Shown here: one piece after another, positions 892 to 18,173 of the stretch | Position numbering within the stretch: the first letter of the stretch is position 1 | Layout: each line of letters starts with the position of its first letter | Assembly (NCBI RefSeq): GCF_003965815.1 | Contig: NZ_RXOE01000004.1 | Span: 1-64,000 of the forward strand | Length of the DNA: 64,000 bases | From: Variovorax gossypii | GTDB lineage: Bacteria; Pseudomonadota; Gammaproteobacteria; Burkholderiales; Burkholderiaceae_C | Direction of reading: 5' to 3' | Made by a program: the position numbers and the translations under genes | The notes under the pieces: generated by a model | Databases searched by the model: none | Told to the model about the DNA's origin: nothing | What the model saw: only the letters and a program-made list of their open reading frames with translations

Positions 892-896
892 GCGAT

Positions 897-2753: not shown

Positions 2754-4247
2754 ATGTTGAAGCGACGCACACTCATGACTTCCGCCATGGCCGCGGCAAT
2801 CCCGGGTGTCTTCCTGCCCCAGGCCCGTGCGCAGGCCGGCAAGAACACGCTGACGATCGGCATGCCGCTCGAACCGCCGGGCCTGGACCCGACGAGCGGC
2901 GCCGCTTCGGCCATCGCGGAAATCACGCAATACAACATCTTCGAGACGCTCACCAAGGTGAACGCCGACGGCTCGGTCACGCCGATGTTGGCGGAGAGTT
3001 GGTCGTCCTCGCCCGACATGAAGACCTTCGTCTTCAAGCTGCGCAAGGGCGTGCGCTTCGAGAACGGGCAGCCCTTCAACGCGAACACGGTGAAGTTCTC
3101 CTTCGACCGCGCGGGCGGCGCCAAGAGCACGAACAAGGACAAGCGCTTCTTCAGCGAGATCGGCACCGTCGTGCTCGACGAGCACACAGTGGGCGTCAAC
3201 AGCACGCTGTCGAACCCCGACCTGCCCTTCATGCTCGGCCAGTCGACCGCCTGCATCGTGGAGCCCAAGAGCGCCGAGACCAACGCCACTGCACCCGTGG
3301 GCACCGGCCCCTACAAGCTGAGCGCCTGGCAGCGCGGCGCCTCGTGCACGCTGGTGAAGTCGCCGACCTACCGCGACCCCAACCTCGCGAAGACCGAGAA
3401 GTTCGTCTTCCGCTTCATGTCGGACACGGCCGCGCAGACCGCCGCGCTGCTGTCGAACGACATCGACATCTTCCCGCGCGCGGGTACGCGCTCGGTGAGC
3501 CAGTTCAAGGGCAACGCGCGCTTCCAGGTGATCGAGGTGGGCACGCGCGGCAAGGTGATCCTGACCATCAACAACCGCAAGAAGCCGCTCGACGACGTGC
3601 GCGTGCGCCGCGCGATCCTGGCGGCCATCGACCGCAACGCGATCATCCAGGGCGCGGCCGACGGCTTCGGCAGGCCCATCGGCAGCCACTACGCGCTGGG
3701 CGCGCCGGGCTTCATCGACACCACCGCGATGAACCCCTTCGACGTGGAGAAGGCGAAGAAGCTGCTGGCCGAAGCCGGCGTGAAGACGCCGCTCGAGCTG
3801 CGCCTGCAACTGCCCCCGCCCTCCTACGCCCGCCAGGGCGGCGAGGTGATCGCCGCGCAGCTCGCGCAGATCGGCATCAACGTGAAGATCCAGAACGTGG
3901 AATGGGCCCAGTGGCTCAGCGGCACCTTCGGCGGTGCGCACGACTTCGACCTGACCATGGTCGCGCACGTGGAGCCCTTCGACCTGGTGAAGTACACCGA
4001 GCCCGACTACTACTGGGGCTACGACTCGAAGAAGTTCCGCGACTTGTTCGTCACCATCCAGAACGAAGAGAACAAGAAGCGCCGCGCCGACCTGCTGGCC
4101 GATGCACAGCGCATGCTTGCGACCGACGCGGTCAACGGCTTCCTCTACCAGGCGGTGTTCCCGACCATCGCGCGCAAGGAAGTGAAGGGCCTGTGGCCGA
4201 GCATGCCGATCGTGGTGAACGACCTGGCCGCGATCTCGTGGGGTTGA
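2754..4247 (+). CDS. ABC transporter substrate-binding protein, SBP family 5
   Basis: Periplasmic ligand-binding protein for the peptide-type importer, 497 aa. The N-terminus is an export signal with two arginines before a hydrophobic stretch and an AQA-like cleavage site near residue 28. The mature part has the family 5 features: PPGLDPTSG, an ETLTK segment, and AESWSSSPD followed by FKLRKGVRFENG. These proteins bind peptides, glutathione, nickel or amide-like compounds. The amidase, dehydrogenase and hydroxyacid-dehydrogenase homologue encoded directly downstream suggest a small amide or carbonyl compound rather than a general peptide. That is inference from context. Confidence 0.93.
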   Translation: MLKRRTLMTSAMAAAIPGVFLPQARAQAGKNTLTIGMPLEPPGLDPTSGAASAIAEITQYNIFETLTKVNADGSVTPMLAESWSSSPDMKTFVFKLRKGVRFENGQPFNANTVKFSFDRAGGAKSTNKDKRFFSEIGTVVLDEHTVGVNSTLSNPDLPFMLGQSTACIVEPKSAETNATAPVGTGPYKLSAWQRGASCTLVKSPTYRDPNLAKTEKFVFRFMSDTAAQTAALLSNDIDIFPRAGTRSVSQFKGNARFQVIEVGTRGKVILTINNRKKPLDDVRVRRAILAAIDRNAIIQGAADGFGRPIGSHYALGAPGFIDTTAMNPFDVEKAKKLLAEAGVKTPLELRLQLPPPSYARQGGEVIAAQLAQIGINVKIQNVEWAQWLSGTFGGAHDFDLTMVAHVEPFDLVKYTEPDYYWGYDSKKFRDLFVTIQNEENKKRRADLLADAQRMLATDAVNGFLYQAVFPTIARKEVKGLWPSMPIVVNDLAAISWG

Positions 4248-4251
4248 TGCG

Positions 4252-5673
4252 ATGAGCACGTCGACATCGAAGCCCCTGTATTCCCTGGGCGTGCAGGAGC
4301 TGCACGCGGCCTATGCCTCCAAGGAACTCTCGCCGGTGGAAGTGGCGCGCTCGGTGAACGAGCGCATCGCGGCCTACGAGCCCGAGCTGCATGCCACCTG
4401 GCTCTTCCGCCCCGAACTGGCGCTGGAACAAGCCCGCGCCTCCGAGGCACGCTGGCTGGCCGGCAAGCCGCTCGGCACGCTCGACGGCGTGCCCGTGACC
4501 ATCAAGGACAACCTCGCGACCAAGGGCGATGCGATGCCGCTGGGCACCGCCGCCTACGACCTCGTGCCGATGAGCTACGACTCGCCGCCCGCCGCGCGCC
4601 TGAAGGAAGACGGCACCGTGCTGGTCGCCAAGACCACCATGCCCGACCTGGGCATGCTGTCGTCGGGGCTGTCGAGCTTTCATGAGCTCTCGCGCAATCC
4701 GTGGGACCTGTCGCGCACGCCCGGCGGTTCCAGCGCTGGCGCCGGTGCTGCTGCCGCCGCCGGCTACGGCCCGCTGCACGTGGGCACCGACATCGGCGGC
4801 TCGCTGCGCCTGCCGGCGAGCTGGTGCGGCATCTACACGCTCAAGCCCAGCTTCGGCCGCATTCCGCTGAGCTCTCCCTACATGGGCCGCTGTGCCGGCC
4901 CGATGACCCGCACCGTGGCCGATTCGGCGCTGATGATGGCTTCGGTCGCGCAGCCCGACGACCGCGACTATTCCGAACTGCCGCCGCCAGTCATCGACTG
5001 GAATGCCTTCGAGGTCGATCCGTCGTTCATCAAGGGCAAGCGCGTGGCGCTGCACATGGACGCGGGCTGCGGCCTGCCGCTGGACCCGCAGATCGCCGAA
5101 GCCGTGCGCCGCGCGGCGAAGCACATCGAGGCCGCTGGTGCGCACGTCGAGGAAATCCCGGCCTTCATGACGCCGAAGATGCTCAAGGGCATGGACCACT
5201 TCTGGCGCATGCGCTCGTGCATCGACATCCAGGCTATGGCGCCGGAGAAGCGCGCGAAGATCCTGCCGTACATCCGCGAATGGGCCGAGAGCGCGGCCGG
5301 CTTTTCGGGCGCGCACATCTTCGAGGCCTACAGCGAGTTCATCGCCACGCGCGCGGCGGCCATCGCCGCGACCAAGGCCTACGACTTCGTGATCTCGCCG
5401 GTGTCGCCCAACATGCCCGCGCCGGCCGACCACGCCTCGCCGACCAACGACCCGATGCTGCCGCTGGAGCACATCGGCTTCACCGTGCCCTACAACATGT
5501 CGGAGCAGCCCGCTGCCTCGATCAACTGCGGCTACTCGGCCGAAGGCTTGCCCATCGGCCTGCAGATTGCCGGTCGTCGCTTCGACGACCTGGGCGTGCT
5601 GCAGTTCAGCCGCGCCTTCGAGCAGATCCGCGAAACGCAGAAACCCTGGCCGGAACCCAACGCGACCCGTTGA
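4252..5673 (+). CDS. Amidase signature family hydrolase
   Basis: Hydrolyses an amide bond; substrate unknown. 473 aa, usual for the family. The Ser-cisSer-Lys triad can be assigned: Lys85 (TIKDN), cis-Ser160 in GGSSAGAG, and nucleophile Ser184 in GTDIGGSLR. It starts 4 bases after the binding-protein stop, so it is co-transcribed and probably translationally coupled with the importer. The likely role is to cleave the imported compound in the cytoplasm, with the carbonyl product passed to the aldehyde dehydrogenase encoded next. There is no signal peptide. The family includes GatA and aryl-acylamidases; GatA is unlikely because gatB and gatC are absent. Confidence 0.93.
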   Translation: MSTSTSKPLYSLGVQELHAAYASKELSPVEVARSVNERIAAYEPELHATWLFRPELALEQARASEARWLAGKPLGTLDGVPVTIKDNLATKGDAMPLGTAAYDLVPMSYDSPPAARLKEDGTVLVAKTTMPDLGMLSSGLSSFHELSRNPWDLSRTPGGSSAGAGAAAAAGYGPLHVGTDIGGSLRLPASWCGIYTLKPSFGRIPLSSPYMGRCAGPMTRTVADSALMMASVAQPDDRDYSELPPPVIDWNAFEVDPSFIKGKRVALHMDAGCGLPLDPQIAEAVRRAAKHIEAAGAHVEEIPAFMTPKMLKGMDHFWRMRSCIDIQAMAPEKRAKILPYIREWAESAAGFSGAHIFEAYSEFIATRAAAIAATKAYDFVISPVSPNMPAPADHASPTNDPMLPLEHIGFTVPYNMSEQPAASINCGYSAEGLPIGLQIAGRRFDDLGVLQFSRAFEQIRETQKPWPEPNATR

Positions 5674-5698
5674 CCCGGCCCCCAGGAGACAAGACACC

Positions 5699-7153
5699 AT
5701 GAACGCAACAGCAGCCCACTACATCGACGGACGCCGCGTGCAGTCCGAAGGCAACGCCACCATCGACGTGATCGACCCGAGCGATGGCAGCAAGTTCGGC
5801 GAGATCGCGCGCGGCACCGCCGCAGACGTGGACACCGCCGTGCGCGCCGCGCGCCAGGCCATGGGCGAGAACTTCGACGGCCCCTGGGGCGGCATGACCG
5901 CGCTGCAGCGCGGCCGCCTGCTCGCCAAGCTCGGGGCAGCCGTCATGGAGCACCACGAGGAGCTGGCCCAGCTCGAGGCGCGCGACACCGGCAAGGCGCT
6001 GCGCGTGGCGCGCAACGACGCCACCGCGCTGGCCCGCTACATGGAGTACTACGCCGGCGCCTGCGACAAGCTGCACGGCGACACCCTGCCCTACGAGCGC
6101 GGCTACACCGTGCTGACGGTGCGCGTGCCGCACGGCGTGACGGGCCACATCATTCCCTGGAACTACCCGATGCAGATCGCGGGCCGCAGCGTGGGCGCCT
6201 CGCTCGCCGCGGGCAACGCCTGCGTGGTGAAGCCGGCGGAAGATGCGAGCCTGTCGCTGCTGCGCCTGGCGGAGATCGCGACCGAAGTGGGCTTTCCGGC
6301 TGGCGCGCTCAACGTGGTGACGGGCTACGGCAAGGAAGCCGGCGCCGCGCTGTGCGCGCACCCGGGCATCGACCATATCTCGTTCACCGGCTCGACCATG
6401 ACCGGCCGCAGCGTGGGCCTGGCCGCGGCCGAACGCCACTGCCCGGTGACGCTCGAACTCGGCGGCAAGTCGCCGCAGATCGTGTTCGCGGATGCCGACC
6501 TCGACGCGGCCGAGCCGGTGCTGCTCAATGCCATCATCCAGAACGCCGGCCAGACCTGCTCCGCGGGCAGCCGCGTGCTGGTGGAACAGTCGGTCTATGA
6601 AGAAGTGGTGCAGCGGCTTGCCAAACGCTTCACCGCCGTGCGCGCGGGCACGCCCGCCGAAGACCTGGACATGGGCCCGCTCATCAACGAAAAGCAGTTC
6701 CGCCAGGTGCGCGACATGGTCGCGACCGCCGAGGCCGCCGGCCTGAAGGTGGCGGCGCGCGGCACGGTGTCGCCCAACGCGTCTTCCACCGGCTACTACC
6801 AGGAGGCCGTGCTGTTCCGCGACGTGCCGCACGAGAGCGACATCGCGCAGCGCGAGGTCTTCGGCCCGGTGCTGGCCCTGACGCCCTTCGCCGACGAGGC
6901 CGAAGCGGTGCGCCTGGCCAACGGCACGGATTTCGGCCTGGTGGCCGGCGTATGGACCCGCGACGGCGCGCGCCAGTTGCGCATGGCGCACAAGCTGCAT
7001 TGCGGCCAGGTCTTCGTCAACAATTACGGTGCGGCGGGTGGTGTAGAACTGCCTTTCGGCGGCGTGAAATCCAGCGGCTTCGGCCGCGAGAAGGGCTTCG
7101 AGGCCCTGCTCGGATTCACGACCCTCAAGACCATCGCCATCAAGCACGGATGA
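5699..7153 (+). CDS. NAD(P)-dependent aldehyde dehydrogenase
   Basis: Oxidises an aldehyde to the acid with NAD(P)+. 484 aa from the ATG at 5699, which follows a CAGGAGA ribosome-binding site; the frame stays open upstream but that stretch does not resemble the family. The catalytic Cys287 (GQTCSAG) and general base Glu253 (LELGG) are present, with the cofactor-binding FTGST motif before them and the C-terminal LPFGGVKSSGFGREKG. It sits between the amidase and a hydroxyacid-dehydrogenase-like gene in the same operon. The substrate cannot be deduced. Confidence 0.95.
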   Translation: MNATAAHYIDGRRVQSEGNATIDVIDPSDGSKFGEIARGTAADVDTAVRAARQAMGENFDGPWGGMTALQRGRLLAKLGAAVMEHHEELAQLEARDTGKALRVARNDATALARYMEYYAGACDKLHGDTLPYERGYTVLTVRVPHGVTGHIIPWNYPMQIAGRSVGASLAAGNACVVKPAEDASLSLLRLAEIATEVGFPAGALNVVTGYGKEAGAALCAHPGIDHISFTGSTMTGRSVGLAAAERHCPVTLELGGKSPQIVFADADLDAAEPVLLNAIIQNAGQTCSAGSRVLVEQSVYEEVVQRLAKRFTAVRAGTPAEDLDMGPLINEKQFRQVRDMVATAEAAGLKVAARGTVSPNASSTGYYQEAVLFRDVPHESDIAQREVFGPVLALTPFADEAEAVRLANGTDFGLVAGVWTRDGARQLRMAHKLHCGQVFVNNYGAAGGVELPFGGVKSSGFGREKGFEALLGFTTLKTIAIKHG

Positions 7154-7162: not shown

Positions 7163-8056
7163 ATGACTACCACTGAACAGCAGCAAGCGCCGCGCAAGGT
7201 CGGCCTCGTCGGCGTCGGCCTCATGGGCCACGGCATCGCCAGCAACATCGTCAAGCACGGCCACCAGCTCACCGTGCTGGAGCACGCGGGCAACCAGCCC
7301 ATCGACGGCCTGCTGAAGGCCGGCGCCACCTCGGTGAAGGACGTGGCCACGCTGGCCGCGCAGGTCGACGTGCTGATCCTGTGCGTCACCGGCACCCCGC
7401 AGGTCGAGGCCGTGATGCTCGGCGACAGCGGCGCACTGACCACGCTGCGCCCCGGCACCGTGGTCATCGACTGCTCGACGGCAGTGCCCGCCTCCACCGC
7501 CAAGGTCGCGGAAGCAGTGAGCGCCAAGGGCGGCAAGTTCATCGACGCGCCCATGACCCGCACCGCGAAGGAAGCCGCCGAAGGCCGGCTGAACCTGCTG
7601 GTGGGCGGCGACGAGCAAGTGCTGGCCTCGTGCCTGCCGCTGCTGCGCTGCTTCGCCGAGAACATCACGCACGTGGGCGGCATCGGCGCTGGCCATGCGA
7701 TGAAGCTGCTGCACAACTTCGTCTCGCTGGGCACCGTGGCGCTGCTGTGCGAGGCGGCCGCCTGCGCGGAGCGTGCCGGTGTGAAGCCCGACGTGTTCGT
7801 CGACGTACTCGCCAAGGGCGGCGGCAACGGCGTAGCGCTGGAACGCGTCAAGCCCAAGCTGCTGACGGGCAGCACCGATTCGCTGAAGTTCTCGATGGCG
7901 AATGCGAAGAAGGACCTCGGGTACTACAACGACATGGCGGAGCAGTCTTCTTCGAGCCATGGCATTGCGCAGGCTGTGGATGCGCTGCTGACTCACGGGG
8001 TCGAGAAGTTCGGTGGTGACCGGATGGTGCTCGATCTGGTTGAAGCGTTGCGCTGA
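7163..8056 (+). CDS. NAD(P)-dependent oxidoreductase, beta-hydroxyacid dehydrogenase family
   Basis: 297 aa member of the 3-hydroxyisobutyrate/tartronate-semialdehyde reductase family. The Rossmann motif GLVGVGLMGHG is at the N-terminus, and the catalytic lysine lies in GAGHAMKLLHNF. The usual DAPVSGG substrate-binding loop reads DAPMTRT here, so substrate preference probably differs from classical members. It is the last gene of the import-catabolism operon, 9 bases after the dehydrogenase, and a hairpin follows. A shortened, diverged copy of its 3' end lies at 18065-18145, on the far side of the island that begins right after this gene. Confidence 0.93.
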   Translation: MTTTEQQQAPRKVGLVGVGLMGHGIASNIVKHGHQLTVLEHAGNQPIDGLLKAGATSVKDVATLAAQVDVLILCVTGTPQVEAVMLGDSGALTTLRPGTVVIDCSTAVPASTAKVAEAVSAKGGKFIDAPMTRTAKEAAEGRLNLLVGGDEQVLASCLPLLRCFAENITHVGGIGAGHAMKLLHNFVSLGTVALLCEAAACAERAGVKPDVFVDVLAKGGGNGVALERVKPKLLTGSTDSLKFSMANAKKDLGYYNDMAEQSSSSHGIAQAVDALLTHGVEKFGGDRMVLDLVEALR

Positions 8057-8062
8057 TCTCTT

Positions 8063-8085
8063 GCCCGCACTTGCTCTGTGCGGGC
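8063..8085 (+). terminator. Hairpin after the import-catabolism operon
   Basis: Perfect 8-bp stem (GCCCGCAC / GTGCGGGC) with a 7-base loop, starting 7 bases after the oxidoreductase stop. No clear T-run follows, so intrinsic termination is plausible but not certain. Confidence 0.5.
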
Positions 8086-8226
8086 CGCTCGCTGTTCGGG
8101 GCGCGTGCGGCTATGAAGTTCGTGGTTCGACCGCTGCGGCGGAATGCGGATGGATATGCGCGGGCGCAACACTGAACATTTGCCGGACCTCGTCCATCCC
8201 AGCTCGAACCACCCAATCTCGCACCA

Positions 8227-8622
8227 TCACTCAAACCGTATCTCAGCCACGGTAGGCGCATTCGGCTCCCTGGTTTGAGCATTCGCAATGCCACCGTCCT
8301 TTTCGTTCCTGAACCAGTAGCGGCAGCCGGTTCGAGAAATCATCGTCACGCACATCGAGCCGTCGGAGTTGAGAACCCACTTGCCCGACGCCTTGCCGGG
8401 CCCGCTTTGATTGACAAAGTCGACGCGGCCATCCGAATAGAACTGCCAGCGCGACACCATGCCGGTCGAAAGATTGCTTGAAACGATGGGCTTGCCGATC
8501 AAGGTGGTCTCTACCTCGGCTTTGGTCAGAAACACCCGGCCATGGATGGGTGCGGACTCCTCGGAGATGGCCGGCACGGCGGCAATGCAAAGCAGCGTGC
8601 GGACGACGTATCGTGTGAACAT
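8227..8622 (-). CDS. Small exported hypothetical protein
   Basis: 131 aa, first gene of the hypothetical-gene island. The start has a purine-rich AGAGGGG site upstream. The N-terminus (RYVVRTLLCIAAVPAIS) is a short export signal. The mature part has alternating polar and aromatic segments, with the pattern W-Y-DGR then GKWVLNSDG-C and a second cysteine 12 residues later (GCRYW). This resembles small periplasmic beta-rich proteins of the DUF995 kind; the resemblance is by eye. Function unknown. Confidence 0.7.
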   Translation of the reverse strand: MFTRYVVRTLLCIAAVPAISEESAPIHGRVFLTKAEVETTLIGKPIVSSNLSTGMVSRWQFYSDGRVDFVNQSGPGKASGKWVLNSDGSMCVTMISRTGCRYWFRNEKDGGIANAQTREPNAPTVAEIRFE

Positions 8623-9303
8623 GACATGCCCCTCTGACGTCGCGCAGTCGGCGTGCGTTCAGCCCTGCGCGTGCGTCCAAGCGCCTGGTTGGCCTGTCGG
8701 TAACGCCCGATGGCGTTACATGGCATTAACTAAAAAGCGCTACTTCTTTGAGCGCTGGATCCGGCCGGTGCACGCGAACGAGGCCTGCTTCTTCCTGCGC
8801 TCCACAGCCATGCCGGGAGGTGGTGGCCCGAGATCGAGACGAGGAAGGCGGCGTTCTTTTTCGGCGACGACACGACTTGTGCTCCGATGGCCCTCCGGCA
8901 AGGTGGCCGAAGGGCGTTGTGGGGTGGCTTGGGCAAACTCCGTAGCAACGCGCCAGCGACGGCGGAAGAGCACTATGAAGGCCACGGTGCAGTTGCTTGT
9001 ATTGCGCTGTGTCGTGCGTACGGCGCTTGTAAACGGCCCATTGATTTCCGCGCAGACGTAACCCACGTTTCCGCTGAATCTCGGCCCTTCCCACACCTCG
9101 GATCGCAGGCCTGTGGTCCAGAGCATCGGCACGCGGATATCCGATTTCTGCCGGCGAGGTCGTGGCGTCGAACTGCACGGGCACGAACGCCGCTTTGGCT
9201 TGATCCCGCAGCATGTCGACGGTCGCATTGACAGGACTGGCGCTGGGCAACCGTTGATCGCTTTGCTTGATCGGTGGTCCAAATCAGCCTGGCCGCTTCA
9301 GCG
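8623..9303. other. Intergenic region with a possible decayed gene
   Basis: About 680 bases with no gene I can support as intact. Two overlapping minus-strand frames (8726-9250 and 8740-9282) each show a short protein-like stretch: PVNATVDMLRDQAKAAF near 9200-9250 in one, and GNVGYVCAEINGPF near 9045-9085 in the other. Together they would need at least one frameshift to make one protein of about 170 aa. This could be a degenerate gene or chance coding in a G+C-rich spacer. Confidence 0.35.
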
Positions 9304-10008
9304 TCACTGGATGGCGGTAGCCAGTTCAGCGCGCACTGCCGCGAACACGGCAGCGGGATTCAAGGCACGCGATATGGGTCGGCCGATGACCACGTGCGTC
9401 GCGCCAGCCCCGATTGCCTGCGTGGGAGTCGCAGCCCGCACGTGGTCATTTTGTTCATCGCCTGAGAGCTGCGTACCTGGCGTCACGATAAGGGCACCGA
9501 GCGGCAAGACCTCACGAAGCAGCCTCACCTCCAATGGGGACGCTACAACGCCATGGCAACCGGCTACGGCTGCAAGACGACCCAGTCGTGCGACCTGCTC
9601 TGGAACCGTCGAGGCGACACCTACCTCTTTCAAATCCTGGTCACTCATGCTGGTGATGACGGTGACCGCAAGAATCTTTAGTTGAGGGAACTGGCTCGCG
9701 GCTTGAACTGCCGAGCGAAGCACAGCGGAACCGCCTGAGGCGTGCACAGTCACCATCGAAGCACCCAGATGTCCGGCTGCCGTCACCGCGCCAGCCACCG
9801 AGTTTGGAATTTCCAGCAGCTTGAGGTCCAGGAAAACACTTTTCCCTGCATCTACAAGCTCGCGGACGACCGAAGGTCCTGCTGCCGTCAGCAGCTGCAG
9901 GCCTACCTTGTAGAACGTAGTGGCTGCGCCCAACTGCTTCACGAGGTCCGCCGCCAATGCGGCGGTAGGGAAGTCGAGCGAAACGATGATGCGGCTGTCC
10001 GTGCTCAT
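9304..10008 (-). CDS. Orotidine 5'-phosphate decarboxylase-like protein (divergent PyrF)
   Basis: 234 aa, matching the short bacterial type of OMP decarboxylase. The ATG at 10008 is preceded by GAGGACA. The fold markers are clear: SLDF (Asp12), FYKVG (Lys34), FLDLK (Asp61, Lys63) and a C-terminal VIGRPI. In OMP decarboxylases the catalytic array ends in a second Asp (D-x-K-x-x-D-I-P-N-T); here it reads DLKLLEIPNS, so that Asp is Glu66. The phosphate-site segments TPGIRP and DQxR are also altered (TPGTQL, DHVR). It may be a low-activity paralogue or an enzyme with a new substrate. It sits among hypothetical genes with no other pyrimidine gene nearby, so it is unlikely to be the housekeeping pyrF. 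Confidence 0.85.
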   Translation of the reverse strand: MSTDSRIIVSLDFPTAALAADLVKQLGAATTFYKVGLQLLTAAGPSVVRELVDAGKSVFLDLKLLEIPNSVAGAVTAAGHLGASMVTVHASGGSAVLRSAVQAASQFPQLKILAVTVITSMSDQDLKEVGVASTVPEQVARLGRLAAVAGCHGVVASPLEVRLLREVLPLGALIVTPGTQLSGDEQNDHVRAATPTQAIGAGATHVVIGRPISRALNPAAVFAAVRAELATAIQ

Positions 10009-10154
10009 TGACTTGTCCTCAATGTCGATGCCCTGCGCTCCCAGAGAGACCGTGAACTGGGCAAACGTGCGCAGCCTATCAGCTGACAGGCAGAATGCGG
10101 CCAACAGCGGTCGTCCAAGACAAGCCGTCAATTAAGCCAAGAATCGCAACTTCG

Positions 10155-10541
10155 ATGAGTCACCTCACCATTTCGAGCATCAACTGGCTTTCAGATAGCG
10201 GGGACGCCAACGTTACGCTTTCCAGCGATGTGGCCACGGTGGTGGCCTTTTGCTTTCAGTGCTCTTACAAGGTTGGCCAAACAGTTCCCAACCTGCTGCA
10301 TCCGGTCATGGTTGACGAGCTGGAGTCTCCGTACCTGCAAGACTGGCCGGCAGATAAGAAAGCACTTGCTGGTGCAGAGCGGCTGGAGTGTCACGGGAGC
10401 TACGGGTATCGCGGTTGCGGCGAAGTAGTCGATCAGGCTGAGGGACTGGTCCAGGCGCGTGGCTTCGTCTTCAACTTCGGGGATGTCCCGGCTGGTGCAG
10501 AAACTGTTCGATTTCAGTTTGACCGACTGGACCTTTGGTGA
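10155..10541 (+). CDS. Hypothetical protein
   Basis: 128 aa from the ATG at 10155; the frame is open upstream to 10095 but that part looks like spacer. Soluble and acidic, without export signal or membrane segment. It has three cysteines, two in an ECHGSYGYRGCGE segment that could bind a metal or form a disulfide, and a beta-like C-terminus rich in Phe. Not recognised. It is transcribed away from the PyrF-like gene, so the roughly 145-base gap should hold divergent promoters. Confidence 0.55.
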   Translation: MSHLTISSINWLSDSGDANVTLSSDVATVVAFCFQCSYKVGQTVPNLLHPVMVDELESPYLQDWPADKKALAGAERLECHGSYGYRGCGEVVDQAEGLVQARGFVFNFGDVPAGAETVRFQFDRLDLW

Positions 10542-10743
10542 GCACAAGTGTGAGCAGATAAACGACTGCTTTCGAGAACAGCGAACTTCGGCTCAAGGCC
10601 CGGTGGCGTCGACCTCACTTCGACTACAGTCGGCCACAAGCCGTCATCCGGCGTTCGGGGCCAAATCGCGACGTAGCGACGTAGCGACGTTGGGCCGACC
10701 ACGCAGAATTCGACCACCTTCGCACTCTAAGCAATAAAACCGC

Positions 10744-11196
10744 ATGACATTGACTAGTTTGCTCGGCAAGAAGCTGAAAGACGAAGAGATTCTTCAACTC
10801 ATAGAGGACTATCAGGTCGGCGATGTCGTCTATAGCTTCGATCGCCTACGCGAGGGCACAGAGGACGAGTACTGGGCCGAAGCGAAGGCGGCTGGATTTG
10901 CGGTCCGGTTTGACCAGAACCAAGTGCTCAAGACGGTCTTCTGCTATGCGTCCTCAATTGAGGGGTTCACACCCATCTCAGCGAGCGACGTTGGGGTGCC
11001 CTTTTTTAGTTCTTTTGAGGATGCAGAGGTTGCAGCCAAGGCCGCAGGAGTTCGTCATTCCACCGGGCATGTTGACGATGCTCTACTGGGCTTGAAGTCA
11101 TCTTGGGTCCGACATGAGCGCCCTGAAGCCTGGGTGCACTACGAGTTCCGTGATGGTGAACTTGCTCTGGTCACGCTTTCGCGCTCAAGGCCGTAG
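10744..11196 (+). CDS. Hypothetical protein
   Basis: 150 aa, soluble, acidic, without signal peptide. It begins with a short helix (LTSLLGKKLKDEEILQLI) and has alternating strands and helices after it, ending in VHYEFRDGELALVTLSR. The size, acidity and fold pattern are like immunity proteins of polymorphic toxin systems, but no toxin gene is adjacent and this is only a resemblance. Codon use is less G+C-biased than in the flanking operons. Function unknown. Confidence 0.7.
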   Translation: MTLTSLLGKKLKDEEILQLIEDYQVGDVVYSFDRLREGTEDEYWAEAKAAGFAVRFDQNQVLKTVFCYASSIEGFTPISASDVGVPFFSSFEDAEVAAKAAGVRHSTGHVDDALLGLKSSWVRHERPEAWVHYEFRDGELALVTLSRSRP

Positions 11197-11236
11197 TCCG
11201 GCCATCATCGGTCGTTCATTCAAGATACTCGAACTG

Positions 11237-11527
11237 ATGCAGTCGATCCGAAAGTACTATCGAACGTACAACGAGAGTCATGAAGGGATTCCTGGACTCT
11301 TCTATTGCGAAGTCCATGACGGCATGATCACTCGGATGATTAACAGCTTTGAGCATGAGCTGTGGTGGGCAACCCCTAGCGCTCATAACAACGAGCAGTA
11401 TGACTTCACGACCCGTCCCGAATTTCCAGAGGCCGATACAGAAAATCTGAAAAGGGATGCGGCCCTCACCGAACTGTCCCTCGCAGAGTTCGAGGAATTA
11501 TGGCGCCGTGCGACGCGGCAGCCTTAA
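11237..11527 (+). CDS. Hypothetical protein, possibly DUF6881-like
   Basis: 96 aa from the ATG at 11237; an upstream in-frame extension overlaps the previous gene and is unlikely. The layout (GIPGLFYCEV, then ITRMINSF, then a C-terminal LSLAEFEELW) resembles DUF6881-type small proteins often found as isolated accessory genes. The match is by eye and uncertain. It follows the previous hypothetical gene by 40 bases on the same strand. Confidence 0.6.
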   Translation: MQSIRKYYRTYNESHEGIPGLFYCEVHDGMITRMINSFEHELWWATPSAHNNEQYDFTTRPEFPEADTENLKRDAALTELSLAEFEELWRRATRQP

Positions 11528-11683
11528 GGCTCTTTAGAGCCAGCAATCTGCCTCGCACCGCCACTCGATCGACCAGGCGAGAGACCGCTTTGGATTGAAT
11601 CGAACTTCGGCTTCGGGCCCTTTCCGGTCACTCGTCCCGGCAGAAAGCGGCCACTCGAATCGCACGAGCCCGCACCGTTGAGG

Positions 11684-12307
11684 TCAGGACAAAAATTTTA
11701 TTGAAGCAACGAACTCTTCAAATGGCTTCTCCATCTCTTTGAAAAAAACCATGGGGTCCTTTGCCTTGTCCACAGACCCCGCTCCGCATTGAATCATCCA
11801 CGCGAATCCTGGCGTCTGAGTGACGAAGTGCTTGGTAACGACTCTGAACTGATCAGCACCTTGGCCCTCAGTGACCGTCGCAACGGCCCAGTAGGCCAGC
11901 GCACCCCCTATCGTGCTCTGTCCCACCTTTTCGATAGAAAGCGGGCCGCGCACCTGGGTAGCGAGTCTTGCTCGGAATCCTTGCGCATCGAGCGGCTTAC
12001 TGGCATATGCCTCATTAAGTTGCTTCTGGGAATATGACCGAAAGTTTGGCGGCAAATCGTGCCTGTCGATCTGGCAAGTAAAAGCGATGTTGCCTCTCTC
12101 CCTGAGCCCCGCTCGAATCGCAACTATCTTTCGCGTAGGTTCACTTGCCAGCCGGTACTCCCACCGATCAGGCAGGTCAAAGGAGACGGTGGCCTCCGGA
12201 ACGGCCACTTGCCTAGAAAAGGCGCTCATCGGCAAGACCGACAGACAGGCAATTCCGAAAAGGAGTGCCGACTGCGGGATGAAACGAATCTTCGAAGTTG
12301 TGCGCAT
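11684..12307 (-). CDS. Exported hypothetical protein
   Basis: 207 aa from the ATG at 12307 (an ATG at 12346 is also possible). A typical signal peptide is followed by an AFS-like cleavage region. The mature part begins with VPEATVSFDLPDRWEYR, a pattern common in small periplasmic PsbP/DcrB-like proteins, and ends in PFEEFVASIKFLS, also typical of that fold. It carries two widely spaced cysteines (FTCQID, IQCGAG). Function unknown; it probably folds in the periplasm. Confidence 0.65.
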   Translation of the reverse strand: MRTTSKIRFIPQSALLFGIACLSVLPMSAFSRQVAVPEATVSFDLPDRWEYRLASEPTRKIVAIRAGLRERGNIAFTCQIDRHDLPPNFRSYSQKQLNEAYASKPLDAQGFRARLATQVRGPLSIEKVGQSTIGGALAYWAVATVTEGQGADQFRVVTKHFVTQTPGFAWMIQCGAGSVDKAKDPMVFFKEMEKPFEEFVASIKFLS

Positions 12308-12405
12308 TTCTCGTCCAGTTTTTGATGAAAGTTTAGGCTCATCCATGCGCCAGTCTGCTCGAGGAAGAGGCAGGCGGTAAAGGTCGGCTTCTGGCCGCCA
12401 TCGGC

Positions 12406-12864
12406 CTATTTGCTGGACTCCAGCAGCTTCAATGTCTCAGCGGGAAGTACGCCATCGGGAAGAAGCTTGCTCTTAAGCGCTGACGGCCTAAAACCGGTGT
12501 TGTCGTAGCCTCCCACCAAGAGCCATGTTTGCCTCAGCTTCACGTGGAAGTTGCCAATGCCGCTACAACTGATACCACTTGGTTCGCCGACGCCAATAGT
12601 CGTGACAATTGTCGATTGATTCCCTCCGCGCCATGAACGTAGTACCTCAAACTCGACTTTCTGCTCAGAGAGCATCTGCGGGCGAGGCGGTAGATTCTCG
12701 ACCACAACAACTCTGGCAAGGATGACCACTTGCAATGAGTCTCGTTGCTTCAAGAAGGCTTCTAGGTCGTACGCGGACGGCGCAAGGCTGCATGCCGCTG
12801 CACAAACAGGTAGCGCGCCGAACAACGCTCCGCCAGCGGAACTGAGCCAGTTTCTAAATCCCAT
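12406..12864 (-). CDS. Exported hypothetical protein with TIMP/netrin-like pattern
   Basis: 152 aa with a very good ribosome-binding site (GGGAGGAATT) before the ATG. A signal peptide ends around the CAAAC cysteines. The mature protein shows VVILARVVVVE, then VEFEVLRSWRG, then a Cys-Gly pair and WLLVGGYDNTGF. This is the order seen in bacterial OB-fold proteins resembling TIMP/netrin domains, where conserved cysteines join the N-terminus to the barrel. The family call is by eye. It may share ancestry with the protein encoded at 14390-15022. Confidence 0.65.
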   Translation of the reverse strand: MGFRNWLSSAGGALFGALPVCAAACSLAPSAYDLEAFLKQRDSLQVVILARVVVVENLPPRPQMLSEQKVEFEVLRSWRGGNQSTIVTTIGVGEPSGISCSGIGNFHVKLRQTWLLVGGYDNTGFRPSALKSKLLPDGVLPAETLKLLESSK

Positions 12865-13020
12865 AATTCCTCCCGTCGACTGTCGACCTCACCTCGCCCC
12901 ACCCTGGGCCATTGACTGCGGTTTATCGAATTCTGGTTCAGGGCCGATCGTCTGCTATTGGCCGACTGTCGCCGGTCGCGACAGCATCGCGAACGGGCCC
13001 AGAGCGGCCCTTGATCAACG

Positions 13021-13269
13021 TTAGTCATCAACGTCTGTAGTCCATCCTTGCGCTCCACAGAACTCCTTGACGTGGTGGAATTCGGCGTCGGTGACGTGAT
13101 ACAGATAGGCAAATGCGTGTAGAGCCCCGCATCGCTCGTAGACCAACACCGCGTCATTTATTATTTGCGCCGGGAGAACGGTCAAACCGTGCACGGAGTG
13201 CTCCGCCGGCATCGGGTGTCCAAGGGCAGACTCAATGCGTGGGTGCAGATCTGGAAATGCCATATTCAT
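13021..13269 (-). CDS. Small hypothetical protein
   Basis: 82 aa, chosen to start at the ATG at 13269 because an AGGAAG sequence lies about 10 bases upstream. Soluble, His-rich and Asp-rich at the end, with LVYERCGALHAFAYLYHVTD in the middle. No signal peptide. Not recognised. Confidence 0.5.
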   Translation of the reverse strand: MNMAFPDLHPRIESALGHPMPAEHSVHGLTVLPAQIINDAVLVYERCGALHAFAYLYHVTDAEFHHVKEFCGAQGWTTDVDD

Positions 13270-13396
13270 CAAAGTCCGCTTCCTACCGACTGTTATGAGA
13301 TCTGATGCAAGTCAGAACGCGCTCGCCAAGCACTCTCAGACTGGAAGAGCAAAGCTTGAGAGCGCTAGGCACGTCGGGTTGTGGCCGCATGAGGAA

Positions 13397-13753
13397 CTAC
13401 CCAGCGACGTACATCGTGGTTTCTGGCAGCTCGCCGGCCTTCCAATGCGCGAAGACCTTCTGAGCCGCACGGTCGGCGACCCGACGCTGGCTATCACCGG
13501 GCATCGGCTCAAGTAACTCGAACTTTCCAGTTTTCTTGACGAGCTTCAGCCGCCCGGAGACGGCTCTGGCCTGTTCGTTGCGGTTCGGGCCAACCGCACC
13601 GTAGAGATTGCTACTGAACTGGTAGACACACTCGCGGTCGTCGTCGGAGAGGCGACGCAGACTTATGCACATCCAGTCGAGGTACTCACCGGAATCAGAC
13701 GTCGATGGCGATGGCTCTACGGACATGATTTCTGACGACCACAGGGGGTGCAT
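13397..13753 (-). CDS. Hypothetical protein
   Basis: 118 aa from 13753; an internal ATG at 13726 gives 109 aa and neither start has a clear ribosome-binding site. Soluble, mixed charge, with RLKLVKKTGKFELLEPMPGD suggesting beta strands. No recognised domain. It lies 77 bases downstream of the acetyltransferase gene on the same strand. Confidence 0.5.
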   Translation of the reverse strand: MHPLWSSEIMSVEPSPSTSDSGEYLDWMCISLRRLSDDDRECVYQFSSNLYGAVGPNRNEQARAVSGRLKLVKKTGKFELLEPMPGDSQRRVADRAAQKVFAHWKAGELPETTMYVAG

Positions 13754-13830
13754 GGGTTGCTAAAGGTGACTGCTCGGGCTGAATCGAGCCACAGCGACGA
13801 ACGTCCTGTCCTGGCCGATTGCTGCGTTTT

Positions 13831-14295
13831 CTATGCGAAGACTGTTGTTGGTGGCTTTGCCACAAACCCTCGTTCGACATCCCCTTTGAACCCAACAGCC
13901 TCGTACAAGCCGTGAGCCTCTGAACGCTGCATGCCGGAAAGGAGCATCACCTTACAGCAGCCAGCTTGCCAAGCCTCCATCAACGCGAACTCCAGCAATC
14001 TGCGGCTGAGCCCACGGCGCCGGAATCTCGCCGCCGTCACAACGTGTTCGATAACACCGATGGGCCTTCCGCCACTCGCAAGGTTGGCCAACGTGGCCAG
14101 CATGCAGGTGGAGGCGACCTCCTCGTCGCATTCGGCCACCAGCACCATGGATTGCGGGCCTTCCGCGACCTCCCTCCAAAGTAAATCGAGGCGATCATTC
14201 GCAATCGGAGGGTCATGGGGTCTCAACTCGCGATAGAGCGCGAGAATGGCGGGTGCGTCTGCGGCGGCAGCTTTCCTGACTGTGATGCACGTCAT
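13831..14295 (-). CDS. GNAT family N-acetyltransferase
   Basis: 154 aa acetyl-CoA-dependent acyltransferase. It opens with the GNAT strand ITVRKAAAADAPAILAL and has motif A as VIEHVVTAARFRRRGLSRRL, the R-x-x-G-x-G/A-type loop that binds the acetyl-CoA pyrophosphate. The C-terminal SEAHGLYEAVGF is the usual last helix-strand. The acceptor is unknown. Single GNAT genes are common accessory cargo in bacterial islands. Confidence 0.85.
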   Translation of the reverse strand: MTCITVRKAAAADAPAILALYRELRPHDPPIANDRLDLLWREVAEGPQSMVLVAECDEEVASTCMLATLANLASGGRPIGVIEHVVTAARFRRRGLSRRLLEFALMEAWQAGCCKVMLLSGMQRSEAHGLYEAVGFKGDVERGFVAKPPTTVFA

Positions 14296-14389
14296 ATGCG
14301 GTTGTTAGTGCGCCTTCGTCGAAGGTCTGGTTCTGGCCGACTGCGAAGGACGTTAGACACTTCCCGATTCATCCTCGCCAGCAGCAACA

Positions 14390-15022
14390 TCACTTTGTAC
14401 CTGCGTAGATCATGGCAAGGCCCTTGAGGAATTCGTCGAGCAAAATCTCCGTGTTGCCTGTGCAAGTTTCACCGATCATTTTCGAGTCGCAGTGGCTCGG
14501 GAAGTGCGTGGAAGATACATAGTTCAAGGTTCTTATGCTCACTGCTGGCCTGTAGTCGAAGTGCGGGCTCGGTTTGACTTCGATTGTTCCAAGCCCCCAT
14601 CCTGTCTCGCGCAGTGGGGCGTAGCCCGATTCGCATTGGGCACGTGCCGCCTCCTCTTTCCCGGCAGGAGTCCAGCTGGCGATCAAGGGATCCTTGAAGT
14701 ACGAATACGTTGAGTCGCCGGGCGCCCCGGCCTTGACCAGTAGCACCACGTATCGATTGCCGATTCCACGTCCACTGAAAGGACTGAACGAGATCATGCT
14801 GCCCACCGAAGGGCCCTTCACCGTCGACCGCACTACAGCCTCGTAAATGGCGCCGCAGCGCTGCCCAATGCTGGCCATTGCAAGTCGCCCCTCAACGATT
14901 TCCACCTCAGCAACAACGTCTGCTTGCGCCACCGCTTGGTCCAAGTCGATATATATGGACGTGGCTAAGCAAGCTTGTTGTGCAAAGGCAAGGATTGCCG
15001 TGAGTACAAGACTTCGGATCAT
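14390..15022 (-). CDS. Exported hypothetical protein
   Basis: 210 aa from the ATG at 15022, which has AAGGTG upstream; a longer open frame exists but starts in non-coding-like sequence. A signal peptide (LVLTAILAFAQQACLA) is followed by DQAVAQADVVAEVEIVEG, then a YEAVVRSTVKG strand and a glycine-rich RYVVLLVKAG. This order resembles TIMP/netrin-like OB folds, as does the smaller protein at 12406-12864. Cysteines occur in pairs late in the protein (HCDSK, ETCTG). Function unknown. Confidence 0.6.
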   Translation of the reverse strand: MIRSLVLTAILAFAQQACLATSIYIDLDQAVAQADVVAEVEIVEGRLAMASIGQRCGAIYEAVVRSTVKGPSVGSMISFSPFSGRGIGNRYVVLLVKAGAPGDSTYSYFKDPLIASWTPAGKEEAARAQCESGYAPLRETGWGLGTIEVKPSPHFDYRPAVSIRTLNYVSSTHFPSHCDSKMIGETCTGNTEILLDEFLKGLAMIYAGTK

Positions 15023-15269
15023 GCAAAGCACCTTGTTCGTGACTAGGTTCACAAAAGACCTTCGACGCGGCAACCGCTGCGGCTTGGCATCGCAGCCGAA
15101 GAAGAAAACACTTGCATCTCGCAGTCCACTCCTTAAGGGGGCAATGAAGGCTTGATTTGGTTGCAATGTACCTAGCAAAGTAGCAGTTGCGCGCCACAAT
15201 GATGGAATATTGAGCTGCCGTGACGAACGACCGCTTCTAGCCGATTCACGCCGCTGAATGCACCAGCGT

Positions 15270-15701
15270 TCATCGAGCAATACGCGCGGCCAATGCGTCG
15301 AACACCTCGGCAAGACCACGATCCTCTGAGCTGTAGGGGTAGTCGAAGTGTTCAACTTGCAGCCACTGCGCTTCCTGGCCGGGATGAACGTACTTCTCGA
15401 AGTCGTCGACCAGCAATACTTGGTGGGGATCTACGCCCGGGACAAATTGAAGGTCTTTGGTCTCGCCCCGCCAGACGATGTACTCCATATCCGCAAACCA
15501 GGTGGGCGCGACCTTCTCATCCACCAATAGGCGCGCGATCTTTCGGAATCGTTCTTCCTTGACTGTGGTGAACATGACGATGCGGGGGAACAACTCAGCG
15601 CAACGAGTCAGGAACTCAGCCAGGCCTGGCCGCGGTATCTGGCTCATCGCGTTTGAGATCAAGGTGCCTTCGAGATCGAGGGCAAGGACATATTCGTTCA
15701 T
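15270..15701 (-). CDS. HAD superfamily protein, NIF-type phosphatase-like
   Basis: 143 aa. The first HAD motif reads LALDLEGTLIS: the nucleophile Asp (Asp8) is present, but the second acid of the usual D-x-D-x-T is Glu. Motif II is the Thr pair in VMFTTVKEERF and the acid pair of the last motif is LLVDDFEKY. The short size without a cap domain, and RPGLAEFLTRC, are like NLI-interacting-factor-type phosphatases that act on phosphoproteins. The substrate is unknown. Small HAD genes of this kind are frequent in islands. Confidence 0.75.
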   Translation of the reverse strand: MNEYVLALDLEGTLISNAMSQIPRPGLAEFLTRCAELFPRIVMFTTVKEERFRKIARLLVDEKVAPTWFADMEYIVWRGETKDLQFVPGVDPHQVLLVDDFEKYVHPGQEAQWLQVEHFDYPYSSEDRGLAEVFDALAARIAR

Positions 15702-15748
15702 GGACGGACTTGGATCGACTGTAGGAACGTCTGGTCTTGGCGAAAGCG

Positions 15749-16480
15749 CTAGACATCAAGCGCTCGCTGCCTGCGGATCTGGCGCTTCTGCTCTGCACTG
15801 GGCGGCTTGAACGAGCCGGAAAGACGGCGCTGGAGAGACTTTATCGCGGCGGTTTTTGCACGCATAGCACCCGCGTCGACCACCGTCTGAGCCTGCGCCC
15901 ATTCCAGTGCCCCTTCGATAGGTGCCCCTCTTAACGCACACAGGCAAAGTGTCTGTTGAAATGGGGTGTTGGCGCCCGCGAACGTCTCGATAACCAAGTC
16001 CCTCAACTTCTCCCGCTGTTCATGTGTGATGACCAGCCCGTCGTCGAAGCTGGTCAAAGAGTTCAACGCGCTGAGCGCTTGCCAAAACGGATCGCCTGGC
16101 TCGTCCGAAAGGGGAGTGGTCGACAGGCAGTAGTCCAGCAGCACCGCAACACAAGGCTCGGTGCGGACTTCCGTAAGAACCGCGATGGCAAAGGTCGCGA
16201 GTGTCCGATTGGTCAGCAAACGCTGCAGCGAAGCAATGCCACCCCGCCCGTAGGCAATGCAGGCCGCAGCCCAGCGCGCGAGCGGCGCTACTCTTTTGCC
16301 GTTTTCCAGCAAGCCGTCCTCATGCCAGCCGTGTTGCTTGCAGAGTCGTTCAATTTCGTCAGCACCCTCAGCACCATATGCCAGCGAAAACCGAATCATG
16401 TCTTCTGGATTAACTGATCCACCGTAGGACAGTGGTGCGGAGCCTTTCGCGGCTTTGCGGGCAAGATCGTTGAACTTCAT
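15749..16480 (-). CDS. Hypothetical helical protein
   Basis: 243 aa, soluble, predicted mostly helical with Ala/Leu-rich repeats (LARWAAACIAYGRGG, LATFAIAVLTEVRTEPC, FWQALSALNSL), reminiscent of HEAT-like helical repeats. No enzymatic motif seen. The C-terminus is strongly basic (KRQIRRQRALDV). Similar proteins of about 240 aa occur as orphan immunity-like genes, but no toxin is adjacent. Not recognised. Confidence 0.65.
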   Translation of the reverse strand: MKFNDLARKAAKGSAPLSYGGSVNPEDMIRFSLAYGAEGADEIERLCKQHGWHEDGLLENGKRVAPLARWAAACIAYGRGGIASLQRLLTNRTLATFAIAVLTEVRTEPCVAVLLDYCLSTTPLSDEPGDPFWQALSALNSLTSFDDGLVITHEQREKLRDLVIETFAGANTPFQQTLCLCALRGAPIEGALEWAQAQTVVDAGAMRAKTAAIKSLQRRLSGSFKPPSAEQKRQIRRQRALDV

Positions 16481-16522
16481 CTGATGTGCGTTTGATCGAG
16501 GCTAGCCACTTCCAGTGGCCTC

Positions 16523-16981
16523 TTAGCTTGCAGCACGGGCCATGGACTTGCGGATCGATTCCAAGAGTTCTTCCGTAGGCAACTCGACAGACGATCCGTC
16601 GGCACGAAATTCATCAAGACTGCGCAGCAGGCTACCGATTCTTGATGGTGCGAAAGACCACCCTTCAACATTCGACCACCCTCTTTCAACCAGGAATCCC
16701 TCTTGGCGACGGGTGCAGCGCAGCCAACCGGTGTATTGGTCCGAGAAGTCATATGGCAGGAAGGCGATCTCATCAACGTGCAACTCATTCAGAACTTCCA
16801 GCCATTGTTCCAACACTCGCAAGAGCACTGCTCGAACCTTCGCTACATCTTCGACTTTTGGCAGCAGGTAGTCGTCAAGCGCCAGGTAATAGGAATCGCA
16901 AACCCAAGTTTTCCCTTCCCACTCCAGCACGATGTCGTTGTGCTGGGTTCCGTTGTCGACGAAATTCAAGCTCAAACTCAT
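16523..16981 (-). CDS. Hypothetical protein
   Basis: 152 aa. The ATG at 16981 was chosen over an upstream one at 17008 because it has an excellent GGAGGG site 6 bases before it. Acidic and soluble, beginning with strands (LSLNFVDNGT, IVLEWEGKTWVCDSYYLALDD) and ending with a helix (LPTEELLESIRKSM). Looks like a compact alpha/beta protein; not recognised. It is the first gene of the minus-strand run ending at 11684. Confidence 0.7.
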   Translation of the reverse strand: MSLSLNFVDNGTQHNDIVLEWEGKTWVCDSYYLALDDYLLPKVEDVAKVRAVLLRVLEQWLEVLNELHVDEIAFLPYDFSDQYTGWLRCTRRQEGFLVERGWSNVEGWSFAPSRIGSLLRSLDEFRADGSSVELPTEELLESIRKSMARAAS

Positions 16982-17312
16982 CACGCCCTCCTTTCCCATT
17001 CGAATCACAAAGATCGAAAGATCTACTTCGTCGAATCTGCGTGCAGGTGCTGAGCGGCCGTTTCTGACCGCACGCTGCCGCGCCTCCGAACGACAGCTCT
17101 TGGTCGATAGTACCTATTCACTTCGCCAGAGCCAACGACAGCAACCATTGCAAAGCAGATGAGCGCGTTGCCTGTCGCCGCAGCGCACGGCCGACGCCGA
17201 GGCTGGCTCTCTCAACAGAATCGAACTACCGCCATCAGGGAGACCTGAGCCTCTTCGCACAAAAGGGCTTGTTCCCAGGCAGGCGGCGATCTCGCGGCCC
17301 GCAGACAAGCCC
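16982..17312. other. Intergenic region
   Basis: About 330 bases with no supported gene. Part of it should hold the promoter of the minus-strand gene starting at 16981. A copy of the island's short dispersed motif (GCGGCCGTTTCTGACCGCA) lies near 17053-17071. Confidence 0.4.
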
Positions 17313-17582
17313 CTACCCGCCAGCCTCAGGCGCCTCACGCCGCGCCTTCTCACTCATCTGAAACAGCTCACCAGCCTTGCGAGCAAGCTCAGCCGCAAGC
17401 CAAAGCAGGTTGTCCAATCGTCGAGGCCCATCCCCGCTGCACCAGTCGACGTCTTGCCCGTGGCAGACCCACAGGAGAGCTTCGAGTTGAGACAGGGTGT
17501 TTTCAAGAAGATCCGCCGGGTCTTGGGCGTTGTCTTCGGAAGCTACCAGCGTAGTTGGCCGGGCTATAGTCTTGGTAGCCAT
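17313..17582 (-). CDS. Small hypothetical protein
   Basis: 89 aa from the ATG at 17582, with AAAGGA upstream. The core is amphipathic helix (DPADLLENTLSQLEALLWVC, then RLDNLLWLAAELARKAGELF), suggesting a two-helix bundle. The general look resembles DUF3077-type small proteins of Pseudomonas and relatives, but this is not a firm match. No export signal. Confidence 0.6.
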   Translation of the reverse strand: MATKTIARPTTLVASEDNAQDPADLLENTLSQLEALLWVCHGQDVDWCSGDGPRRLDNLLWLAAELARKAGELFQMSEKARREAPEAGG

Positions 17583-17936
17583 TTTTGTGCTGTCCTTTAG
17601 AGGGTAGTGCACGAACTTGGTTAGACGGCTGGGGTGCTCGCTACATCCCGGCCGTCGCCTTTTGATACCTCGCATCTGCATCGCTGCTTTCGCACCGACG
17701 ACCTGCCGCGAGGCAAGCAGCCTTCGAACATCGGGTTGAGTTGGGTGGGTGGCGCCTTTCTGCTCCCCTTGGTAGGGTATCGAGTGACAGGGGCATTCAC
17801 TCTAGAGAAGAAGCCGGCGAAGCAACCGCTGCCACAGCACGAAGTCGCGAAGACCGCGAACTAATGCAGCTTCCGCAACACGCCGCGCGCAGACCTCGCG
17901 AGCCCCGAGCCATATCAGCCCACAGCGGCTCCAAAA

Positions 17937-18032
17937 CGCTCACGCCGATGGGGTGCCTTGCGCAGCGAAATAAAGGGGGAGCCCGAAGGGCGGAGGACAT
18001 TCGCGGAGCAAGGTACCCCGTCGGCCTGAGCG
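17937..18032. repeat. Large imperfect palindrome
   Basis: Two 33-base arms, 17937-17969 and 18000-18032, are inverted copies with a handful of mismatches (GCCGATGGGGTGCCTTGC pairs with GCAAGGTACCCCGTCGGC). They flank a 30-base G+C-rich centre. It sits just inside the right edge of the island. It could be a REP/MITE-like intergenic element; copies elsewhere in the genome would confirm this. Confidence 0.6.
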
Positions 18033-18064
18033 TCGCCCTGAATGACCCCGAACCCCACGCACCG

Positions 18065-18145: not shown

Positions 18146-18173
18146 GCAAGCGCACCACGCTAGAAGACTCTCA

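Follow-up and report, generated by a model that had tools for sequence, protein, structure and literature searches.

What does a protein do that has the barrel and the family profile of OMP decarboxylase (OMPDC, or PyrF in bacteria) but carries Glu at the position where the D-x-K-x-x-D motif should end in Asp? The question is raised by a gene in 64,000 nucleotides of Variovorax gossypii DNA (contig NZ_RXOE01000004.1, positions 1 to 64,000), the whole of which we call the window; the features discussed below are collected in Table 1. Both the barrel and the family profile of PyrF are found in the window protein. It matches the OMPdecase Pfam profile at 4.9e-47 and NCBIfam PRK00230 at 241.6 bits (cut-off 193), and a PDB sequence search gave 3ldv_A as the top match (1.5e-45). 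Its AlphaFold2 model (pLDDT 93.4, pTM 0.91) is closest among solved folds to Klebsiella PyrF 8cso (Z 34.0, rmsd 1.3, 227 aligned, 37% identity), and it superposes on E. coli 1eix nearly as well (Z 33.9, rmsd 1.5, 230 aligned, 37% identity); none of the structures matched to the protein is nearer than about 40% identity. Three PDB entries whose chains are titled enolase-phosphatase (8dop, 8doq and 8ek7) match OMPDC by sequence and fold and are apparently mislabelled. The codons GAC61, AAG63, GAA66, TCG70, CAG180 and CAC189 give the motif D61-L-K63-L-L-E66, and the segments that are IPNT, PGIRP and DQxR in relatives are read here as IPNS, PGTQL and DHVR. The original prediction, made from the letters alone, had described a PyrF homologue with a DLKLLE motif (Asp61, Lys63, Glu66), altered IPNT, TPGIRP and DQxR segments, and a barrel and GRP phosphate site that are kept; the codons bear out the first two points.

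Table 1. Coordinates of the gene, its surroundings and its active-site codons in the window.
Feature	Position	Strand	Remarks
PyrF/OMPDC homologue, DxKxxE clade	9304..10008	-	234 aa, ATG start, stop codon counted
Low-G+C accessory island with the gene	8057..17700	.	approximate edges
Upstream block common with L053	10009..10113	-	89% over 829 bp including the gene
Asp61 codon, first motif Asp, kept	9826..9828	-	35/35 clade rows
Lys63 codon, catalytic motif Lys, kept	9820..9822	-	35/35 clade rows
Glu66 codon (GAA), replaces last Asp of DxKxxD	9811..9813	-	codon read and clade alignment
Ser70 codon, Thr replaced (IPNT to IPNS)	9799..9801	-	clade Ser 35/35; outside Thr 38/38
Ile118 codon, Leu replaced, precedes conserved Thr-Ser	9655..9657	-	clade Ile 29 and Val 6 of 35; outside Leu 38/38
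Gln180 codon, Arg in ordinary PyrFs (PGIR)	9469..9471	-	clade Gln 29, Thr 3, Arg 3 of 35; outside Arg 38/38
His189 codon, gripper Gln in ordinary PyrFs (DQxR)	9442..9444	-	clade Gln 19, His 14, Asn 1, Ser 1 of 35; outside Gln 38/38
Arg210 codon, GRP phosphate site, kept	9379..9381	-	35/35 clade rows

Homologues were collected from genus relatives, a family sample, species genomes, plasmids and extra regions, and 73 rows were placed in a tree, of which 35 carry Glu66 and the other 38 Asp66. The 38 ordinary PyrF rows were picked by hand (30 from species-genome loci and 8 from genus relatives), and three fragments of clade genes (L049, L079 and L151) were excluded from the tree and from all counts. 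All Glu66 rows fall on one side of a single branch with support 100/99, and in a quick tree computed without columns 66, 70, 118, 180 and 189 the support of the clade is still 99. The homologues with Glu at this site, whose collection had been proposed together with the original prediction, are in this way a supported clade of 35 rows, hereafter the DxKxxE clade. Residue 66 served to label the rows, so the 35-versus-38 split at that column holds by construction, and the informative columns are 70, 118, 180 and 189. Ser70 and Ile/Val118 accompany Glu66 without exception (35/35), where the ordinary PyrFs have Thr and Leu (38/38). Invariant throughout the clade are Asp12, Lys34, Asp61, Lys63, Thr119, Ser120, Pro177, Gly178, Arg191, Gly209 and Arg210 (35/35). 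The taxa represented, among the matches listed, span proteobacteria, Actinomycetota and Bdellovibrionales: Variovorax, Acidovorax, Ramlibacter, Roseateles, Rhodoferax and a Steroidobacter MAG, then Couchioplanes, Symbioplanes, Dactylosporangium and a plasmid of Streptomyces, and finally two MAGs of Bdellovibrionales; this range is a lower bound, because 80 of the 523 confirmed places of the species-genome search were kept, and the Bdellovibrionales and Steroidobacter rows come from MAG contigs that may be mis-binned.

The clade gene is under purifying selection, with dN/dS of 0.079-0.253 across 16 gene pairs. Glu66 is common to the 90%-identical gene of the closest relative (L053) and to 33 further rows and is therefore neither chance nor a sequencing error; taken with the dN/dS values, these 34 rows rule out a reading of the window gene as a pseudogene or as an artefact of sequencing. 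Decaying copies do exist, as in one genome (G004) where the second copy matches as two pieces in different frames (L028/L030). Inactivity had been among the outcomes suggested by the original prediction; if this means a gene in decay, it is unlikely, given those ratios and the retention of Asp12, Lys34, Asp61, Lys63 and Arg210 in every clade row. The ideas of a new substrate and of regulation gain in plausibility, since Glu66 is a fixed feature of a conserved, mobile group and has residues co-varying with it; a part as decoy or regulator is conceivable. In open-licence PMC text we found no work on an Asp-to-Glu change at the last Asp of the OMPDC motif and no account of the DxKxxE clade.

The altered positions can be placed on what is described for characterized enzymes. 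Excerpts of a yeast study (PMC12874384) name D37, D96' and T100' as contacts of the ribosyl hydroxyls, D96' and T100' belonging to the partner subunit and touching the 2'-OH of the substrate; they report undetectable activity for D91A, K93A and D96'A, and they state that the DXKXXD motif occurs in all organisms. For the human enzyme, as excerpted from PMC12631982, the 2'-OH contacts are D317' and T321', 2'-deoxyOMP fails to bind and a T321N variant binds dTMP; 2'-deoxyOMP is also given as a poor substrate for the yeast enzyme in the excerpts of these papers (PMC12874384 / PMC12631982). In Methanothermobacter OMPDC, L123 lies near the substrate and Lys72 according to an excerpt of PMC12395307. 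In the alignment, Glu66 and Ser70 of the clade occupy the places of the Asp/Thr pair that contacts the 2'-OH from the other subunit, so both of these contacts are changed jointly, and from its motif we infer that residue 118 corresponds to Methanothermobacter L123. The correspondence of residues between the OMPDC structures of different species is in part our assumption, and yeast Q215, the phosphate-gripper Gln, we take to be position 189 here, as placed by the DQxR motif. Three features can then be compared with a genuine OMP decarboxylase. The catalytic motif is D-x-K-x-x-E and not D-x-K-x-x-D in the window protein and in every clade row (35/35, by the labelling at this residue); the 2'-OH-reading Thr is Ser in 35/35 clade rows versus Thr in 38/38 others; and the phosphate-gripper position is His189 in the window protein and Gln in 19/35 clade rows, the Arg210 of the GRP site being kept. 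As the first two of these defining active-site features are absent, the window protein is filed with the OMPDC suprafamily and not as an OMP decarboxylase.

The reading to which we tentatively lean, while rating it slightly short of an even call, is that the DxKxxE protein would be an accessory decarboxylase, still catalytic but re-tuned to a nucleotide altered at the ribose or the phosphate. Because the catalytic Lys-Asp-Lys (Lys34-Asp61-Lys63) is intact, decarboxylase-type chemistry through a C6 carbanion would probably be retained. Glu66' and Ser70' of the partner subunit would replace the Asp/Thr pair that grips the 2'-OH, Gln180 and His189 may loosen or re-shape the grip on the phosphate, and the putative substrate would be a nucleotide or sugar phosphate unlike OMP at the ribose (for example with the 2' position lacking or altered) or at the phosphate. 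Such a protein might serve as a single-gene accessory trait, for example by clearing or using an unusual nucleotide, with ordinary OMP decarboxylation left to the housekeeping pyrF. The supported clade, the co-variation of residues, purifying selection, the patchy spread and the further OMPDC-family gene found in 19/19 other carriers all point this way. Weighing on the other side, the inactivity of yeast D96'A (excerpts of PMC12874384) means that Glu could cripple catalysis, and the changes on the phosphate side are not uniform, as Arg180 is present in 3/35 rows and Gln189 in 19/35; 2'-deoxyOMP, moreover, is to our knowledge not a known metabolite. A bolder form of the proposal, which we regard as unlikely, would see here an enzyme in its own right within the OMPDC suprafamily, stand-alone and mobile. 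The extra methylene of the Glu/Ser pair would take up the room left where the 2'-OH is missing or altered, decarboxylation or another route to a C6 carbanion would take place on a 2'-deoxy or otherwise sugar-altered nucleotide, and the reaction would be a sanitation or resistance step that pathway maps do not yet show.

The same residues also speak to whether the protein is an enzyme at all. It could instead be a non-catalytic ligand binder derived from OMPDC, acting as a sensor, a sequestering decoy or a partner, and the Ala scan of yeast OMPDC, in which the last Asp is essential (excerpts of PMC12874384), would agree with this; Lys34, Asp61, Lys63 and Thr119-Ser120 are nevertheless invariant in 35/35 rows, although a pure binder could do without them, and we consider such a role quite improbable. 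At the opposite end, the protein may be a redundant OMPDC of the usual kind: Glu would stand in for Asp, and islands would simply carry a conservative variant. The nearest fold and sequence matches are indeed all OMPDCs and the cut-off of PRK00230 is passed, but the joint and exceptionless change of positions 66, 70 and 118, with 180 mostly changed as well, sits badly with a conservative variant, as does the statement in the excerpted yeast study that the last Asp is conserved in all organisms (PMC12874384). We hold this alternative, too, to be very doubtful, and the remaining evidence on it concerns the rest of the genome.

The window gene is the sole PF00215 match in its own genome, and the pyrF_sub2 profile (TIGR02127, cut-off 110.6 bits) has no match there; the window protein itself is not matched by that profile, the six models matched at E<=1 excluding TIGR02127. 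The assembly therefore contains no other OMPDC, which favors an ordinary enzyme, and the finding that the original prediction had named as counting against it, namely that this is the only pyrF of the genome, is formally what the assembly gives. It is, yet, not decisive, because the assembly is incomplete (86% complete, in 15 contigs) and yields no tsaB match above the cut-off, pyrF_sub2 is present in 34/36 genus relatives including each of the six whose DxKxxE copy is clear, and at least one further OMPDC-family gene occurs in 19/19 other carriers (PF00215; 2 or 3 matches each). In these carriers the motif of the partner was read as DxKxxD in 10/19, and for the other nine the judgement is based on score only (99-105 bits); in one genome (G537) a third member of the family accompanies two DxKxxE copies. 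With another OMPDC-family gene in each of the 19, little would be won by adding a plain duplicate.

The 15-kb region around pyrF_sub2 in one relative (G011), to which tsaB was assigned from a reading of the ORFs, has main blocks that are 85-92% identical between three relatives, and a DNA search with it, in which 40 of 1179 candidates were scored, found only dispersed repeats of about 100 bp in the genome of the window. No match to the tsaB profile exceeded the cut-off in that genome; one partial match (40.3 vs 69.3 bits) is probably the paralogue tsaD. The housekeeping pyrF of the strain was probably lost in an assembly gap, which is the simpler account, since completeness is 86% and tsaB, near pyrF in a relative, is also missing. 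The repeat of about 100 bp (query L052 6773-6885 and 7719-7850) is 88-99% identical at 43 places in the genome of the window, among the matches listed, on several contigs, and it also flanks pyrF_sub2 on both sides in G011.

The distribution of the gene is that of an accessory element. It occurs in 18/101 genus genomes and in 10/399 genomes of the family sample (the window's own counted in both), and three copies are on plasmids, namely two Variovorax megaplasmids and one linear Streptomyces plasmid; the copy on the Streptomyces cynarae plasmid carries the annotation 'pyrF'. One copy, in the MAG KLAP50 (L062), is an integron cassette between attC sites at 1865-1993 and 2710-2838: the array holds 17 attC matches on one strand, the stop codon of the gene lies within an attC core, and an IntI gene (459.8 bits) is found in the genome elsewhere than in the array, so flanking attC sites and an integrase are both present. 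L062 also has five near-identical tandem cassettes of about 461 bp with no evident gene (3827-5739). Near the window gene a motif scan and a covariance model built from the L062 sites only, which diverged attC could escape, found no attC; across 39 sources the best match outside L062 reached 20.3 bits (E 0.036), and none was near the gene. An integron origin of all copies was accordingly rejected, attC being present in L062 only. Among phages, nine records match by sequence similarity alone at identities of up to 44.5%, and ten OMPDC loci on viral contigs all have Asp at the last position of the motif. PADLOC gave no match to the window protein.

A single-gene, mobile and always second copy would also be accounted for by an inhibitor-tolerant OMPDC isozyme, which would convert OMP to UMP despite a natural inhibitor such as pyrazofurin 5'-phosphate, much as dfr and sul genes provide a bypass around their drugs. 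A further OMPDC-family gene in 19/19 other carriers, the occurrence on plasmids and in one integron, and the change of the base-side residue before Thr-Ser in 35/35 rows (Ile/Val118) would fit, and pyrazofurin, a natural antibiotic, targets OMP decarboxylase according to an excerpt of PMC8724604. The main changes, however, are at the 2'-OH and phosphate contacts, which are common to the substrate and the known inhibitors, and so offer no obvious discrimination between them; no nucleoside antibiotic cluster was recognized beside three actinomycete chromosomal loci, as judged by eye from ORF starts; and the excerpt of the pyrazofurin literature (PMC8724604) has no mention of a resistance copy of OMPDC. 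We see this explanation, the chief rival to a re-tuned decarboxylase, as possible, though distinctly less than probable.

The surroundings of the window gene agree with an accessory setting. The island has a G+C content of 57.6% vs 68.1% in the remaining window, and Pfam searches of ten neighboring island ORFs returned a single match and no pyrimidine gene, which upholds the original prediction of a gene apart from pyrimidine genes in an accessory island; what has stood of that prediction is an accessory PyrF paralogue with its last Asp replaced, and what has fallen is the decaying gene. The single match is a small NIF-like (NLI interacting factor) phosphatase at 15270-15701 on the minus strand (1.3e-10). 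The oxidoreductase gene to the left of the island contains a 78-bp stretch (7763-7840) that is found again, at 79% identity, at the island's right edge (18068-18144), possibly as the remnant of another copy. An Rfam scan of 8000-18300 found nothing, and no tRNA was found within the 64-kb window. Homology to the closest relative (L053) is confined to the gene and its short flanks, about 105 bp on the upstream side and about 20 bp on the downstream side. The upstream block, TGATAGGCTGCG, is common to several Variovorax copies and would presumably supply the gene with a promoter and a ribosome site of its own; a sigma-70 promoter scan found no consensus site.

When 34 clade loci were clustered by their neighbors, no common partner or conserved operon emerged, so the preferred reading of a re-tuned decarboxylase receives no operon that would name a substrate. 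The most frequent flanking cluster (C2) occurs at 8/34 loci, and the best-linked neighbor, a protein with a MerR-type HTH and a C-terminal P-loop ATPase-like part, at 6/34 (for example L047 6900-7928 and L048 7070-8128, both on the minus strand, and L044 6916-7977 on the plus strand). Among the 18 genus carriers this MerR-P-loop gene lies within 300 bp in 7, at 4.4 kb in 1, unlinked in 3 and is absent in 7; its nearness in those 7/18 would suit a non-catalytic sensor or partner. Against this, it is present in 36/101 genus genomes, including 25/83 without the DxKxxE gene, and it also stands beside other genes; the co-occurrence of the two gives a Fisher p of 0.027 with relatedness ignored. A guess at function from an operon was dropped, as there is no common partner and the MerR-P-loop gene is found beside unrelated genes too. 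At one locus only (L045), a carbamoyltransferase-like gene (OTCace_N and OTCace; 694-1566, minus strand) lies immediately downstream of the DxKxxE gene.

These alignments and profiles suggest a little-noticed group of extra, mobile OMPDC copies whose function probably differs from that of the normal enzyme. OMPDC serves as a standard model for enzyme proficiency. A clade that occurs in nature, is under selection and departs from DxKxxD in step with the other residue reading the 2'-OH offers natural variants with which to probe the role of the Asp. If the substrate is new, the suprafamily gains a reaction, and a mobile trait labelled simply 'pyrF' is explained. We know of no other member of the OMPDC suprafamily with Glu at the last Asp of the motif. 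Compared with known systems, the L062 copy is like other integron gene cassettes in being flanked by attC with IntI in the genome, whereas the window and 37 other sources are without an attC match near the gene. With the branch of 3-hexulose-6-phosphate synthase and KGPDC the window protein has its Pfam family in common (OMPdecase / HUMPS), but it scores 19.9 bits against RuMP_HxlA (TIGR03128), where the cut-off is 200. The pyrF_sub2 group (TIGR02127) belongs to the OMPDC family and has a DxKxxD core (LDAKRGD) in the twelve loci read, and is a subfamily other than that of the window protein. The closest likeness is to the bacterial PyrF of the PRK00230/TIGR01740 type (E. coli, Klebsiella, Vibrio and B. 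subtilis), with which it shares the fold (1eix, Z 33.9, 37% identity) as well as Asp12, Lys34, Asp61, Lys63, Thr119-Ser120, Pro177-Gly178, Arg191 and Gly209-Arg210; unlike these, the clade has Glu66, Ser70, Ile/Val118, mostly Gln180 and often His189, and it is accessory and mobile.
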